From Candidatus Aenigmarchaeota archaeon LH_S6 (GTDB lineage Archaea > Aenigmatarchaeota > Aenigmatarchaeia > QMZS01), in NCBI GenBank assembly GCA_023659935.1, contig JAGXOK010000006.1, positions 1 to 35,834 on the forward strand: a stretch of DNA of 35,834 bases, written 5' to 3'. The notes beneath the pieces were generated by a model. The model worked only from the letters and a program-made list of their open reading frames with translations, was not told where the DNA came from and did not search any database. The translations under genes were made by a program, and so were the position numbers. This document shows positions 15,667 to 33,429 of this stretch, in pieces (the stretch's first letter is position 1; every line of letters starts with the position of its first letter).

Positions 15667-15806
15667 ATAATCAGGATTTATTAGTATATATCTTTTTCTG
15701 TGGGGAATTATATATAATTTAGTAAATACAATATTTATATGATATTTCAATAAAAGGACTAATTCTAAATAATCTTAATTTCTAATAATTGAATCTTACT
15801 ATAATT

Positions 15807-17486
15807 ATGTCATTTAATATATTTAATAAACCTATTAAAAATAAAACAGGGAAGTATACGATAGGAGTTAGTTCTGGTCTGTTTGGGATGGCAAAGCCAG
15901 AGGAGAAAATTTCTCTTATAGATTTATCCCAAAAAGGTTTTTACTCCGCATTAAAAGGGGTTAAGTTCACTCAAATTGACTTGGAAACCGCTACTGAACT
16001 AGATTCACCTGACATAGACAATAGACTAGAAAGAATTAGAGGTTTAGGGATAAGTTATGCATTTCATGGTGAAACCCCTGCGATGGGAGGCGCACAGATT
16101 GCCTTGACTTCTGCAATAGAAGACCAGTATAGAACAGGACATAAAAGATTTGTTAAAAATTTAGAAGGAAGTGGTAGATTAAAAGCTGTTTATTATTTGC
16201 AGCACTCCTGTGAAGGTCCTCCTGCAGAAACTCCATATATAAGACTTGGAGAAAGTATGCAACCAACTTCTGTAGTTGATATTTGGGGCAGGAGATTATA
16301 TATATTTTTAGATGAAAAAGATAAAGAATATTTGCAAGACTGGGCTATAGAGCAGGAAGAGATAACAACGGCCTTCAGAGTGGGTAGCCCTAAAGAATTA
16401 AGTAAAAATCCGAAATTTATGAAGGGTTTGGAGGAGGAGTGCAAGGCTGAGGTAGCTGAAAGATGGAAGAAGGAAGGAAAAGAAATAAAGAGTGGAGAGG
16501 ATGAGGTAAGATTTAAGGAGGAAGTAAAAAGGAAGGTGGATGAGAGAGCTCTTCCAAGAGCAATAGAAAGCGTAAAGAAAGATTTACTCGAGAGCTTGCA
16601 TCTATCCAATATGGTTTTTGGTGCAGAAAAAATTCCATATTTGATAATTGGAAAATGGATGTCTGACAAAAAGGATCCAATATGGGTAGGAATTGTAGGG
16701 AATAAAAAATTTGAGAGTGTTAAAGAAAATCCTCCGGATTGGGTTCCTGCTGTTGCAGCAAAATATATTTGGGGACATCTTAATCCTCTACCAAGTATGG
16801 AAAACAAATTTAAAGATCCTAAGAAAATTTTAGAGAAATATAATTTTGATTTGGTTATTGAAACTCCAATGGTTTCAAAAGGTATGGAAGAGGAATACAG
16901 ACTTGTGAAACCAAAACATTTTGCTATTTTATGCAAAAATTCAGGAACAAAACATTGTGGAGTTGTAATAGATTTTGAGCATTGTTTAGGGGCAGGCATA
17001 AACCCAGATAAAGAAATAGAAGAATTTTGTTCTGATGGTGGAAAATATGTTAAGGCTTTACATGTTGGATGGCCTACACCTTTACAACCTGCCCATGTCC
17101 CGCTTCCTCTGGGTTCAGAGCAACAGGAATGGTTATATAGATGGATGCTTGCTCTGAGAAAAAAGGGTTTTAATGAAAGGGAAAATAGGTATATAATTTT
17201 TGAGAGGGGCGGAGGTGTTGGAGGGGATCCAGTAGACCAGTCAACTCTTGCACTGAAAAAAATTGTTGAATTTTTAAGACAAGATAAAAACCCAGATGAA
17301 TTACCAAAAGAATTTTTTGGGATGGAGGATAAAATAATAAAAATGCAGGAAAGCGAGATCAGGGAACACGCTTTTGACCCTGTAAAAGGTTTACTTGCCG
17401 TTCCTGAAGAAAAGCATGGATTTTTGAGTAAGGCTGCAGTAGGAAAAGGAAAGGAAAAAGAATGGGAAACTGAGAAGTATAGATAA
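15807..17486 (+). CDS. TIM-barrel, AP endonuclease 2/sugar isomerase-like protein
   Basis: About 559 residues from the ATG at 15807; an earlier TTG at 15789 is in frame but less likely. The opening Y-T-I-G-V-S-S-G-L-F-G, later Y-A-F-H-G-E-T-P, F-D-L-V-I-E-T-P-M-V-S, then V-V-I-D-F-E-H-C-L-G-A and V-K-A-L-H-V-G look like successive strands of an AP-endonuclease-2-type barrel with acidic and His metal ligands. A Lys/Glu-rich helical insert (about 190-255) makes it much longer than the usual 280. Sugar isomerase or endonuclease activity cannot be told apart; the carbohydrate genes downstream favour a sugar role. Confidence 0.55.
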   Translation: MSFNIFNKPIKNKTGKYTIGVSSGLFGMAKPEEKISLIDLSQKGFYSALKGVKFTQIDLETATELDSPDIDNRLERIRGLGISYAFHGETPAMGGAQIALTSAIEDQYRTGHKRFVKNLEGSGRLKAVYYLQHSCEGPPAETPYIRLGESMQPTSVVDIWGRRLYIFLDEKDKEYLQDWAIEQEEITTAFRVGSPKELSKNPKFMKGLEEECKAEVAERWKKEGKEIKSGEDEVRFKEEVKRKVDERALPRAIESVKKDLLESLHLSNMVFGAEKIPYLIIGKWMSDKKDPIWVGIVGNKKFESVKENPPDWVPAVAAKYIWGHLNPLPSMENKFKDPKKILEKYNFDLVIETPMVSKGMEEEYRLVKPKHFAILCKNSGTKHCGVVIDFEHCLGAGINPDKEIEEFCSDGGKYVKALHVGWPTPLQPAHVPLPLGSEQQEWLYRWMLALRKKGFNERENRYIIFERGGGVGGDPVDQSTLALKKIVEFLRQDKNPDELPKEFFGMEDKIIKMQESEIREHAFDPVKGLLAVPEEKHGFLSKAAVGKGKEKEWETEKYR

Positions 17487-18960: not shown

Positions 18961-21540
18961 ATGTCTAAACAAAAACTTAGTATAACTAAAAACAATGAAA
19001 ACTTAAAGATTTATTTAGTTCCCCATACACACTATGATGCAATATGGGTTTTCACAAAGGAAGATTATTTTTATATAAATATAGATTTGATTCTGAAAAA
19101 GGTTGTTGACCTGCTTGAGAAAAAGATAGACTACAAATTTCTTATAGAACAAACTTATCTTCTGGAAAAACTTGAAGAGAGATATCCTGAATTTTTCAAA
19201 AAAATTACAAAATATGTAAAAGAAAAAAGAATTGAAATTGCAGATGGGGAATACTTAATGGCTGATACAATGCTTCCACAGGGAGAAACATTGATCAGGG
19301 AAATAATGTTTGGCAAGCAATTTGTAAAAAAGAAGTTTGGTGTTGATGTTCCTGTAATGTGGCAGGCAGATAGTTTTGGTTTGAATGCACAACTTCCGCA
19401 GATATATAGAAAGAGTGGTTACAAATACCTTGCATTCAGGCGGGGATGCCCAGAGAAAAAACCTTCTGAATTTATATGGAAGGGTTTAGATGGAACAAGG
19501 ATCATATCTCATTTTATGCCCTTAGGTTACAGAGCGGGTCTAAATTTAAGTAAATTAGGAGAAAATTATATAAAAATGAAGAATGTATCTGCAACAGATA
19601 GAATACTCATGCCCTGTGGTAGTGGTGTTACAATGCCGCAGGAAGAAACAGTAGAAGTGGTTAAGAACTGGAACAAAAAGAATAAAACCAAGATAAAAAT
19701 TGCAACCCCCTCGGAATTTTTTAAGAGGGTTGAAAAATATGAAAAAAAACTAAAAATCAGAAAAGGTGAAATGTATTCTGGAAAATATTCTAAAATATTT
19801 CCTGATGTTGCATCAAGCAGGATATGGCTTAAAAAAAATTTAAGAAAATATGAAACTAAACTACTAGGTCTTGAGAAGTTTTGTACAATTAATTCTTTTA
19901 TAGATAGCTACTATCCAGAAGAATTAAGAGAATGCTGGAAAAAGGTATTATTTTTGGGTTTTCATGATGTCGTTCCTGGTACAGGAATGGATGAAGGATA
20001 TGAAGAAGCAAAGCAACATATAGGTTTCCTAAATACCAAAATTAAATATCTAATTCCATCTGTTTTGAAATCTATTGTTGAAAATGATTCAAATAATGAA
20101 ACTTTTGGAGATCTTGCAGTATTTAATCCTTTATCTTGGGAGGTAAGTAATTGGGTGGAAGTTAACTTGAAATTTAACAAAGGGCAGGTATTTAAAATAG
20201 AAGGAGTTAAGAATAGGGATGAAGTAAGAGAAGTTGAAGTTATAAGATTTGCAAGGTATGAGGATGAATCCTTAAAAAGAGTAAAAATAGGTTTTGTCGC
20301 AAATGTTCCTCCAACAGGATACAAAGTTTACAAAATTATAGAATCAATAACAAAAGTTGAAAAAAATTCATTTATAAAAATAATAGGAAACACGATTGAA
20401 AACAAATTTTTTAAACTCAGGTTTTCTTCAGATACAGGACTTATAGAAGTATTTAAAAATAACAAGAGGATATGTAAAGGAAATGAGTTAGTAGTTGAAG
20501 AAGAAAGTGGAGACCTCTATTATCATAGAGAAAGACTTGGAATTCCTTTAAAGACAGAGAGGGGAGAAGGAGTCAAATATGGTTCTTTTAAGGTAAATAA
20601 CTTCTGGATTGATAAATCTCCATTAAGGAGAGTTATAAATATAGAAAGCGATTACTATTCTTTAAGATGGCCTTATAGATTAACAGACAAAACAAACACA
20701 AAAATCTGGAGACAAAAGTTTATAAAATTTAAAAAGAAAATAATCATTTACAAAGATATTCCAAGAATAGACTTTATAACCTATGTTGAAAATAATCATC
20801 CAATGATAAGATTAAGGGTAAAATTTGATACAAACATTAAAAAAACAGAATATACATGTGAAACACAATTTGGGGCAATAAAAAGAAAAACTAATCTCTA
20901 TTATCTAAAGCCAAAAGGATGGGTAGAAGAACCTTCTGGAATATTCCCTTCTCTAAGATGGATCGATTATAGTGATAAAGAAGAGGGACTGACGCTTATA
21001 AATAGTGGGAACCCTGAAAATGAAGTAAGAGATAAAACAATATATTTGACTTTAATGCGGTCAGTTGAAATGCTTTCTTCTGATGGGGAATCTGGACCAG
21101 TAATCCCTGTCTCTTATGCAAGGGAAATCAAGAAATATAATTTTACATATTCTATATATCCTCATAAGAAAAACTGGAAAAAGGCAAACTCTTACAAACA
21201 GGGATATGAATTCAATTATAGCCTAATTGCCTTGCAGTTACAGAGAAAAAAGAAATACAAGAGGGAAAACTCATTTTTGAAAGTCTCTCCAGATAATGTT
21301 ATTGTAACTGCACTAAAAAAGAGTGAAGATGAAAAAGGAATAATAATCAGGTTTTATGAAGTACAGGGCAAAAAAACAGAAACTACTTTAACTTTGTTTA
21401 AAAAACCAGAAGAAGTGCAAGTAGTAAACTTAATAGAAGAAAAAGATAAAGAATTTGATAAAAAAATTGAAATTAAGGAAAACGAAATTAAGTTAAATAC
21501 TGCTCCTTTCGAGATTGTGAGTTTAAAAGTGAAATTATAA
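18961..21540 (+). CDS. GH38 alpha-mannosidase
   Basis: An 859-residue glycoside hydrolase of family 38, predicted cytosolic as no signal peptide is seen. The zinc-binding V-P-H-T-H-Y-D-A-I-W lies near 20-29 (His22 and Asp26). The catalytic nucleophile is Asp137 in W-Q-A-D-S-F-G. F-H-D-V-V-P-G-T-G near 335-343 is the second zinc His region. Beta domains follow, with R-W-P-Y-R-L and E-V-R-D-K-T. The typical H-x-H-x-D-x-x-W has Tyr and Ala substitutions but keeps the ligands. It trims alpha-mannosides, perhaps recycling glycan or mannose-based solutes with the MpgP-like enzyme upstream. Confidence 0.92.
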   Translation: MSKQKLSITKNNENLKIYLVPHTHYDAIWVFTKEDYFYINIDLILKKVVDLLEKKIDYKFLIEQTYLLEKLEERYPEFFKKITKYVKEKRIEIADGEYLMADTMLPQGETLIREIMFGKQFVKKKFGVDVPVMWQADSFGLNAQLPQIYRKSGYKYLAFRRGCPEKKPSEFIWKGLDGTRIISHFMPLGYRAGLNLSKLGENYIKMKNVSATDRILMPCGSGVTMPQEETVEVVKNWNKKNKTKIKIATPSEFFKRVEKYEKKLKIRKGEMYSGKYSKIFPDVASSRIWLKKNLRKYETKLLGLEKFCTINSFIDSYYPEELRECWKKVLFLGFHDVVPGTGMDEGYEEAKQHIGFLNTKIKYLIPSVLKSIVENDSNNETFGDLAVFNPLSWEVSNWVEVNLKFNKGQVFKIEGVKNRDEVREVEVIRFARYEDESLKRVKIGFVANVPPTGYKVYKIIESITKVEKNSFIKIIGNTIENKFFKLRFSSDTGLIEVFKNNKRICKGNELVVEEESGDLYYHRERLGIPLKTERGEGVKYGSFKVNNFWIDKSPLRRVINIESDYYSLRWPYRLTDKTNTKIWRQKFIKFKKKIIIYKDIPRIDFITYVENNHPMIRLRVKFDTNIKKTEYTCETQFGAIKRKTNLYYLKPKGWVEEPSGIFPSLRWIDYSDKEEGLTLINSGNPENEVRDKTIYLTLMRSVEMLSSDGESGPVIPVSYAREIKKYNFTYSIYPHKKNWKKANSYKQGYEFNYSLIALQLQRKKKYKRENSFLKVSPDNVIVTALKKSEDEKGIIIRFYEVQGKKTETTLTLFKKPEEVQVVNLIEEKDKEFDKKIEIKENEIKLNTAPFEIVSLKVKL

Positions 21541-21589: not shown

Positions 21590-21761
21590 GGGCTCGTGGT
21601 CTAGACAGGATTTTTATAATCTTGGGATAGTTGGTTAGGACGTCGCGTTGACATCGCGGAGATCAGGAGTAAAGTTTTTAAAAAACTTTCCTGAATTCAA
21701 ATCTGGCAAATCAAAGATTTGTAACTTTCCGATTTGCCAATTGGAAATCTCCTCGAGCCCA
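21590..21761 (+). tRNA. tRNA-Val(GAC) with three introns, none in the anticodon loop
   Basis: Removing three segments leaves a 74-nt cloverleaf: acceptor GGGCTCG with CGAGCCC and discriminator A, D-stem GTC/GAC, anticodon stem TCGCG/CGCGG with loop TTGACAT, T-stem AGGAG/CTCCT, T-loop TTCAAAT. The introns are 26 nt in the D-loop (21605-21630, flanked by TAG repeats), 26 nt after T54 in the T-loop (21671-21696) and 46 nt inside the 3' strand of the T-stem (21705-21750, with an internal GGCAAATC/GATTTGCC helix). The anticodon loop is continuous at 21648-21654. Exact joints are inferred from restoring the cloverleaf. Confidence 0.85.
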
Positions 21762-32203: not shown

Positions 32204-32762
32204 AAATTTAAGACTAAAGATCTAGTTGTAATTGCTCTATTCGGTGCATTAGCATTTGTATTAGCTTTTGTTCTTGGTTCTGCTGTTGTTGTTGCAACTG
32301 GTATACCTACAACTGGAGGAATATTAAATATTTTTATAACAGCAGTTGTTGTTTTTATTGGTATTAATATATTTTATGAAAAATTTGGTTCAGGTATGCT
32401 AATCTGCACAGTGCTTTCTATATTAGCAGTTCCAACAGTGATCCTTGGACCCCCCCCCTAGTTTATTAAAAGTAATAATTGGTGTTTTATTTGATTTTAC
32501 ATTTGATATTGCTTTATTTTCATTGAAGAAAATAAAATTTCGTTTCGCCATTTCAGGTTCTTTAGGTGTGATTGTGGCATTCTGTTTAATGTACCTTATG
32601 TTTATTTTACTAAACTTACCAGAAGCTGGAAAGATGCAAACGTTGTTAATACCCTTGACTTTTATATATGCCTTACTTGATGCTGCCGGAGGTCATACGG
32701 ATTTTTTAATATTTGACAAAAGACTAAAAAACAAGGCATTTATTAAACAGATGCAAAACTAA
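32204..32762 (+). pseudogene. ECF S-component-like membrane protein, frameshifted at a C9 tract
   Basis: From 32210 the frame reads K-T-K-D-L-V-V-I-A-L-F-G-A-L-A-F through several membrane helices to L-G-P-P-P, where TAG 32459-32461 stops it just after nine Cs (32450-32458). With eight Cs the reading passes straight into the second frame (S-L-L-K-V-I-I-G-V-L-F-D to the stop at 32762), giving about 185 residues and roughly five or six helices, right for an S-component. No ATG precedes the first part; AAA stands where the paralogue at 33433 has ATA. The substrate is unknown. It is either decayed, mis-sequenced or phase-variable. Confidence 0.6.
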
Positions 32763-33076
32763 ATAACAATTCCTTCTTTAACTGCTTCTCTAACAATTGT
32801 AACTTGTTTTCTTTTTTTCTCAAATTCTTCCGGGGTGTAGCAGAGGAAATCAACTGGATAATCCAAGTCCCAGTAATTATATAAAATAAGAGGTCTTCTT
32901 CTATGTTTCTGTTTTTTAAATTTAGAAGAGACTATTACAAGGTCAACATCACTGTACTCTCTGAATTTTCCGGTTACCCTTGAACCAAAAAATATTATTT
33001 TTTTTATTGGAAGTTCTCTTGAAACATTTTTTTTGAATTTTTCTAATTCACCAATTAAAGCTGTTTTTCTATCCAT
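32759..33076 (-). CDS. mntA: MNT-type nucleotidyltransferase (antitoxin of HEPN/MNT pair)
   Basis: 105 residues of the minimal nucleotidyltransferase fold: I-F-F-G-S-R-V-T-G (residues about 28-36) then Y-S-D-V-D-L-V-I-V for the two metal-binding Asp. Such proteins add AMP to a Tyr of their HEPN partner and silence it. Its start lies inside the end of the HEPN gene (22-bp overlap), the usual operon layout. It converges with the S-component, whose stop it overlaps by 4 bp. Confidence 0.88.
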   Translation of the reverse strand: MDRKTALIGELEKFKKNVSRELPIKKIIFFGSRVTGKFREYSDVDLVIVSSKFKKQKHRRRPLILYNYWDLDYPVDFLCYTPEEFEKKRKQVTIVREAVKEGIVI

Positions 33077-33429
33077 TTTAACACCTTCTCAGCATTCTCC
33101 AAATCATTTATAGCATCTTCCTCTGAGTACTCTTCAGCAGGTATTTTTTCACCTATATCAGGATACCTTGCCTCTGTGTAAACAGGATTAAGTTCCTTAC
33201 AAATTTCTATTAGAGAATTAGGTAGTTTTAATTTCTCTGCAAGAAAGAAAACATCATGAATCTTTATAAGTTTTCCAAATTTCTTAATGTAAAGGGATTT
33301 CAATGCTTTTTCAACAGACTGATGTGCAAGAAATGAGGCTACATAATAATCTCCTGAATTAAGTGAATGTTTTGCTGATTCCAAATCTCTTTTTGCCTGT
33401 TCCCACCAATTTTTGATTTCCTCTTCCAT
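33055..33429 (-). CDS. hepT: HEPN-domain protein (toxin of HEPN/MNT pair)
   Basis: 124 residues, all helical: W-W-E-Q-A-K-R-D-L-E-S-A-K-H, then Y-Y-V-A-S-F-L-A-H-Q-S-V-E-K-A-L-K-S-L-Y, typical of the HEPN family, and Y-T-E-A-R-Y-P-D near the end. The R-x4-6-H RNase motif of classic HepT toxins is not clearly present, so it may belong to the non-RNase HEPN branch or work differently. The pair lies between two copies of an S-component gene, as if inserted there. It also may act in stress or phage defence (family knowledge). Confidence 0.85.
   Translation of the reverse strand: MEEEIKNWWEQAKRDLESAKHSLNSGDYYVASFLAHQSVEKALKSLYIKKFGKLIKIHDVFFLAEKLKLPNSLIEICKELNPVYTEARYPDIGEKIPAEEYSEEDAINDLENAEKVLKWIEKQL

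Follow-up and report, generated by a model that had tools for sequence, protein, structure and literature searches.

A tRNA-Val(GAC) gene of an Aenigmatarchaeota genome, interrupted once in the D-loop and twice in the T-arm

Nucleotides 21590–21761 of the window (the whole 35,834-nt stretch of DNA analysed here) comprise one complete 74-nt tRNA-Val(GAC) gene and three introns of 26, 26 and 46 nt. The gene is very probably functional and apparently single-copy, with EndA expected to cut each intron at a BHB motif, RtcB presumably rejoining the exons, and the first T-arm intron predicted to leave before the second. The contig carrying the gene is C60 of a metagenome-assembled genome (MAG; G000) of 729 kb in 63 contigs, which is approximately 71% complete and, judged from sequence, is that of an uncultured DPANN archaeon of the phylum Aenigmatarchaeota.

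The gene is encoded on the plus strand and begins with exon 1 (21590–21604; tRNA positions 1–15), followed by intron D (21605–21630; 26 nt), which interrupts the D-loop at 15/16. Exon 2 (21631–21669; positions 16–53) is parsed as carrying an intact anticodon arm with the anticodon GAC. The next intron, T1 (21670–21695; 26 nt), lies at 53/54 and is separated from intron T2 (21702–21747; 46 nt; 59/60) by exon 3 (21696–21701), which by the parse and by comparison with relatives consists of the six T-loop bases TTCAAA (positions 54–59). Exon 4 (21748–21761; positions 60–73) is parsed as T60, the T-stem 3' strand CTCCT, the acceptor strand CGAGCCC and A73. The spliced tRNA features the acceptor stem GGGCTCG/CGAGCCC, a D-arm, the uninterrupted anticodon loop TTGACAT, the T-stem AGGAG/CTCCT, the T-loop TTCAAAT and A73. 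From the sequence alone, the D junction could fall anywhere from 12/13 to 15/16, the T1 junction at 53/54 or 54/55 and, because AAAT is repeated, the T2 junction from 56/57 to 60/61; the BHB register places them at 15/16, 53/54 and 59/60, respectively.

The parse comes from a script that ranks possible tRNA body plans, introns included, by three things only: how well the stems pair, whether the invariant bases are present, and agreement with the BHB rule. The three-intron parse ranks first with a score of 44.4, followed by a runner-up at 34.1; as background, 40 pieces of 260 nt drawn at random from the window scored no higher than 20.8, and 38 of them yielded no parse. ARAGORN identifies the spliced 74-mer as tRNA-Val(gac), and exact excision of the introns gives a cloverleaf tRNA, as indicated by this call and by the contiguous exons of intron-lacking relatives. 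The unspliced gene is not detected by ARAGORN, even with introns allowed, nor by Rfam at its cut-off, with RF00005 giving 14 bits in the wrong register. Standard tRNA finders thus miss this gene, which biases the number of tRNAs counted in genomes of this kind. The top-ranked parse and the ARAGORN call confirm the identity, coordinates, intron count and intron sizes (26/26/46 nt) of the original prediction; its assignment of one intron to the D-loop and two to the T-arm is supported by the parse and the orthologues, and its uninterrupted anticodon loop is borne out. Its placement of one intron within the T-stem 3' strand is not supported: CTCCT is unbroken and base-pairs with AGGAG, and the best position for T2 is 59/60, a T-loop site. 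The exon bases described between the T-arm introns are likewise the six T-loop bases 54–59 only, with none of the additional stem bases that had been counted there.

The Val(GAC) genes of relatives were retrieved by BLAST with the spliced sequence and then re-parsed. The sister MAG G005 (LH_S4) encodes all three introns as in G000. A single intron is present in G003 (53/54, 23 nt) and in G007 (59/60, 118 nt), and in both of these genomes exon 1 adjoins exon 2 directly. The G002 gene contains introns at 15/16 (17 nt) and 59/60 (15 nt), two sites that are also interrupted in the CAC isoacceptor of that genome; G010, which belongs to another genus, also contains introns at 15/16 (29 nt) and 59/60 (69 nt). 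Intron D is therefore present in G005, G002 and G010 and absent from G003 and G007, T1 is the only intron of G003 and is absent from G007, G002 and G010, and T2 is the only intron of G007 and is absent from G003. In G001, G004, G006 and G008 the introns are found at 23/24 and 59/60. More distant members of the class, such as G013, have no introns, and G014, G021 and G027 encode intronless Val genes of other anticodons. Because the orthologues carry different subsets of the introns, the exons are fixed without any structural assumption, up to the short-repeat ambiguity at the junctions. The mature 74-mer of G000 differs from that of G005 at no base, from G003 at one, G007 at two, G010 at nine and G004 at 12. 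The T-stem exhibits compensatory variation across the family (AGGAG/CTCCT, CCCGG/CCGGG, CCCAG/CTGGG and GCCGG/CCGGC). Between G000 and G005, three of the 172 gene positions differ, all of them intronic, and the 3' flank is strongly diverged.

A second, intact tRNA-Val(GAC) gene, which the original prediction had named as evidence that would speak against the locus, was not found by BLAST with the spliced sequence in G000 (approximately 71% complete), G003 or G005. Since no other such gene was found in these three genomes, the gene described here is probably the sole decoder of GUU and GUC in G000.

All three introns exhibit a 4-bp central helix with four of four pairs, flanked by bulges of 3 nt in the register at which archaeal EndA cleaves. 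The central helix pairs the exon tetramer that precedes the 5' bulge with the intron tetramer that precedes the 3' bulge; the opposite arrangement, of the 5' end of the intron with the downstream exon, was rejected as it fits none of the introns. Intron D has the central helix GTCT/GGAT, the bulges AG|A and AG|T, the inner helix CAGGATT/AATCTTG and almost no outer helix (2 bp), and is of the HBh' form. T1 is also HBh', with the central helix CAGG/CCTG, the bulges AG|T and AA|T, the inner helix AAAGTTTTT/AAAAACTTT and an outer helix of 0 bp. T2, with the central helix TTCA/TGGA, the bulges AA|T and AA|T, the inner helix TGGCAAATC/GATTTGCCA and the 5-bp T-stem AGGAG/CTCCT as its outer helix, is the only strict hBHBh' motif with both an outer and an inner helix. 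The relaxed HBh' form is a recognised variant of the BHB motif (PMC4090602). The helix GGCAAATC/GATTTGCC, which had been cited in support of the introns, is real, though it is only an inner helix; what is diagnostic is the central helix of 4 bp by the junctions. Two random tetramers of the window give four of four pairs at a frequency of 0.027, and the bare count of such pairs is not independent evidence because the parser required at least three of four. The independent support, read from sequence comparison, is the change in tetramer identity with the host tRNA at a fixed site: the 53/54 introns of the Asp, Ile, Lys and Ser tRNAs of G000 contain tetramers that match the differing T-arm bases of each host.

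Partition-function folding was carried out for every splicing intermediate. In the precursor with T1 present, the probability of the T-stem is 0.00 and that of the T1 helix is 1.00; the T-stem remains at 0.00 when T2 alone is removed, and rises to 0.76 when T1 is removed, making the T2 BHB possible. In these folds the bases at the 3' end of T1 pair with C48–G51 (CAGG/CCTG) and occupy the 5' strand of the T-stem, and the trend persists at 60 degrees. In silico, the T-stem is thus predicted to be unable to form before splicing owing to this pairing, which agrees with the original prediction on the outcome and assigns it to T1 rather than T2. Removal of both D and T1 gives a predicted fold that departs from the cloverleaf, so the fold-based argument for the order is only indicative. 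The central helix of intron D is weak in the ensemble (probability 0.11–0.19) and includes two G-U pairs.

The proposed course of splicing is as follows. In the unspliced transcript, C48–G51 would be paired with four bases from the 3' end of T1, which would hold the T-stem 5' strand. T1 is predicted to be cut out before T2 because its motif uses this strand and T2 needs the T-stem as its outer helix; its excision would free the strand, allowing AGGAG/CTCCT to form the outer helix of the canonical T2 BHB, and T2 would be cut next. Intron D would be cut on its own, with EndA acting at each BHB motif and RtcB presumably joining the exons. We infer that the transcript is cleaved in this order and ligated, and that the product is used in translation. 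The principle of ordered removal is not new, as archaeal introns so close together that one must leave before the BHB of the other can form have been described for tRNAscan-SE 2.0 (PMC8450103). It is also conceivable, and in our judgement unlikely, that the introns are removed independently in any order and that the competition between folds has no cellular effect. The central and inner helices of T2 can form locally with T1 present (in the MFE structure; probability 0.26), and half motifs are cut by EndAs of broad specificity (PMC6379350). Against this stand the T1 helix at 1.00 and the T2 outer helix at 0.00 until T1 is gone, the iterative archaeal intron pairs already described (PMC8450103) and the sequential processing of multi-intron pre-tRNAs in Cyanidioschyzon (PMC3978253).

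The locus could instead be a decayed pseudogene broken by insertions, with another tRNA-Val reading GUU and GUC. The failure of standard tRNA finders to detect it and the room for another copy in an incomplete MAG are compatible with decay, which is nevertheless very improbable given that G000 and G005 agree at each of the 74 exon bases despite the diverged 3' flank, that the spliced sequence is a complete tRNA-Val and that the single GAC gene of close relatives is interrupted too, at different sites. An assembly or sequencing artefact is conceivable in a metagenome assembly fragmented into 63 contigs; yet all three introns recur in the separately assembled sister MAG, where the only three substitutions in the gene are intronic, which leaves this explanation with next to no probability. 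The inserts might also be self-splicing (group I/II-like) or some other RNA element within the tRNA, for which nothing speaks beyond their presence. Inserts of 26–46 nt are far too short to hold a catalytic RNA core, no Rfam family is found at cut-off in the window and every junction fits the BHB register, making an element of this kind extremely improbable.

Splicing by EndA and RtcB, the favoured account, was examined at the level of the enzymes. RtcB is encoded in G000 (C11:52877–54181, E = 2.3e-172). EndA was not found in this genome by a family search and a search with the sister protein, which its completeness of approximately 71% can explain. Eight further genomes of the genus were searched, and each contains exactly one EndA gene (PF01974); in six of these (G001–G006) PF02778 also occurs once per genome, within the same gene. 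The genus EndA, 221 aa long, comprises a single N-domain and a single C-domain, and neither a second subunit nor a three-unit protomer was found (PF01974 in the eight congeners; PF02778 in G001–G006). Compared with the alpha4 chain of M. jannaschii, the N-domain of the G005 EndA (L075) exhibits single-residue gaps only, and an insert of CSL/ASL size (11–18 aa, Lys-bearing) is not evident in the N-terminal half of the genus enzyme by alignment. Six extra residues rich in Lys/Arg (KLKRGPKT region) are found between the Tyr and His that we take to be catalytic from the known residues of M. jannaschii. The N. equitans alpha chain aligns over this region without a gap and the insertion is present across the class; from these alignments it does not appear to be peculiar to the intron-rich genus.

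Only (alpha-beta)2 and epsilon2 EndAs are described as efficiently removing relaxed-BHB introns, in contrast to the alpha4 type (PMC6379350), and loop-bearing EndAs have been linked to intron diversity (PMC12397907). Points against the splicing account are that EndA was not found in G000, that the central helix of intron D is weak, and that D and T1 are HBh' introns, a class that alpha4-type EndA reportedly removes inefficiently (PMC6379350). On its gene content, the genus looks like an exception to the EndA-type rule, with a single alpha4-like EndA alongside the relaxed introns D and T1. As a tentative proposal, a single-gene alpha4-type EndA without CSL/ASL may splice HBh' introns, including two mutually exclusive T-arm BHBs that enforce an order, perhaps helped by the Lys/Arg-rich insertion. 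If true, this would break the rule that only (alpha-beta)2 or epsilon2 enzymes carrying CSL/ASL loops accept a broad range of substrates.

Non-canonical tRNA introns are the rule in G000, as read from the parses of its other tRNAs. Introns at 53/54 were identified in Asp, Lys and a tRNA with a TAT anticodon, introns at 59/60 in Asn, Ile(GAT) and Gly(GCC), and introns at 15/16 in Thr, with both 15/16 and 59/60 occupied in Ala and Arg(CCT). The Ser tRNA is interrupted in the D-loop and at 53/54, Glu at 21/22 and 37/38, Trp and Gly(CCC) at 37/38, and Val(TAC) at 56/57. The description of the gene in the original prediction as the reverse of the normal pattern is correct as to the intact anticodon loop and overstated for a genome full of introns at 15/16, 53/54 and 59/60; non-canonical intron positions are also well known in Crenarchaeota (PMC4090602, PMC8450103). 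Congeners share the hot spots 15/16, 53/54 and 59/60, and among the tRNAs seen only Val(GAC) has introns at all three. Double T-arm introns were found in 0 of 25 further tRNAs from four congeners (parse scores of at least 35; 279 of 290 tiles in one run), a count that is non-exhaustive because multi-intron tRNAs escape RF00005. The parser gave no parse for the loci L001, L006 and L018 and low scores for L007 and L017.

Some introns of G000 are shared between tRNAs, with 26 of 28 nt matching between Trp 37/38 and Thr 15/16 and 18 of 18 nt between the 59/60 introns of Ile and Arg(CCT); the three Val(GAC) introns gave no match of this kind. In Thermoproteales, similar introns across tRNAs have been read as intron transposition (PMC4090602, PMC4033280). 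The long introns of different tRNAs at L016, L017 and L036 have common motifs, e.g. GACCTTTT...GAAAAGGGTTGC and TTTTATTGGTTAAG, which suggests a family of intron sequences that may be spreading in the genus. The Trp intron that matches Thr 15/16 belongs to L005 (G000:C8, match 919–1107), a tRNA-Trp(CCA) gene; it is 118 nt long and, by analogy with other archaea, could carry a box C/D guide RNA. At the other extreme, the tRNA-Val introns at 15/16 and 59/60 of L025 and L047 (G002) are only 15–17 nt, and further tRNAs of the genus include 53/54 introns of 14–16 nt; both are near the lower size limit of BHB introns.

Multi-intron tRNAs are the subject of two key primary papers, Sugahara 2007 and Tocchini-Valentini 2009. 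Up to three introns per tRNA, the maximum reported, are found in Thermoproteales (PMC8450103, PMC4390854), as in the tRNA-Pro(UGG) of Pyrobaculum islandicum (25/26, 37/38 and 56/57) and the three-intron tRNA-Glu(UUC) of P. calidifontis, and the sites 53/54 and 59/60 are already listed (PMC4090602). Non-canonical introns at these two sites, three introns in a tRNA and sequential removal are therefore already published. G000 resembles Thermoproteales in its up to three short introns per tRNA, its BHB and HBh' motifs and the similar introns in its different tRNAs. It differs in its phylum, in a Val(GAC) gene that has an intron-free anticodon loop and a T-arm interrupted twice, and in the single-gene alpha4-like EndA of the genus in place of (alpha-beta)2. 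As in the close archaeal intron pairs (PMC8450103), one intron would leave before the second BHB forms; unlike for those pairs, folding makes the mechanism explicit here, with the T1 motif predicted to occupy the T-stem strand needed by T2. The tRNA-Ile(UAU) of the eukaryote Cyanidioschyzon merolae (PMC9602550) also has three introns, including D- and T-arm introns, but with one in each of the D-, anticodon and T-arms, whereas Val(GAC) has two in the T-arm. Like G000, ARMAN-2 (Micrarchaeum) belongs to the ultrasmall DPANN archaea and its tRNAs carry non-canonical introns (PMC4033280), but its EndA is epsilon2, with a three-unit epsilon protomer and an ARMAN-specific loop, in contrast to the single alpha-like unit of the genus. 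A search of the open-access literature found no paper on tRNA introns of Aenigmatarchaeota; an earlier archaeal tRNA with introns at both 53/54 and 59/60 is possible. The gene thus extends the rampant multi-intron tRNAs best known in Thermoproteales to Aenigmatarchaeota. The same tRNA with its introns alone or combined forms a natural series in which ordered splicing and intron gain and loss are directly testable, and the genus offers a test of the proposed co-evolution of EndA type and intron diversity.

The assignment to this phylum follows from the neighbouring beta-CASP protein, whose identity is 98% to its counterpart in Candidatus Aenigmarchaeota archaeon LH_S4 and reaches 79% with that of Aenigmatarchaeota AUK047. 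A GH38 alpha-mannosidase gene (window 18961–21540, plus strand) lies directly upstream, and the locus is partly syntenic because a GH38 gene also precedes tRNA-Val(GAC) in G005 and G002. Further upstream, positions 15789–17486 of the plus strand contain a 565-aa ORF with no Pfam match at E 0.001. On the minus strand, at 32759–33429, a HEPN protein gene (PF05168) overlaps that of a nucleotidyltransferase (PF01909), forming a pair of the HEPN-MNT toxin-antitoxin type.
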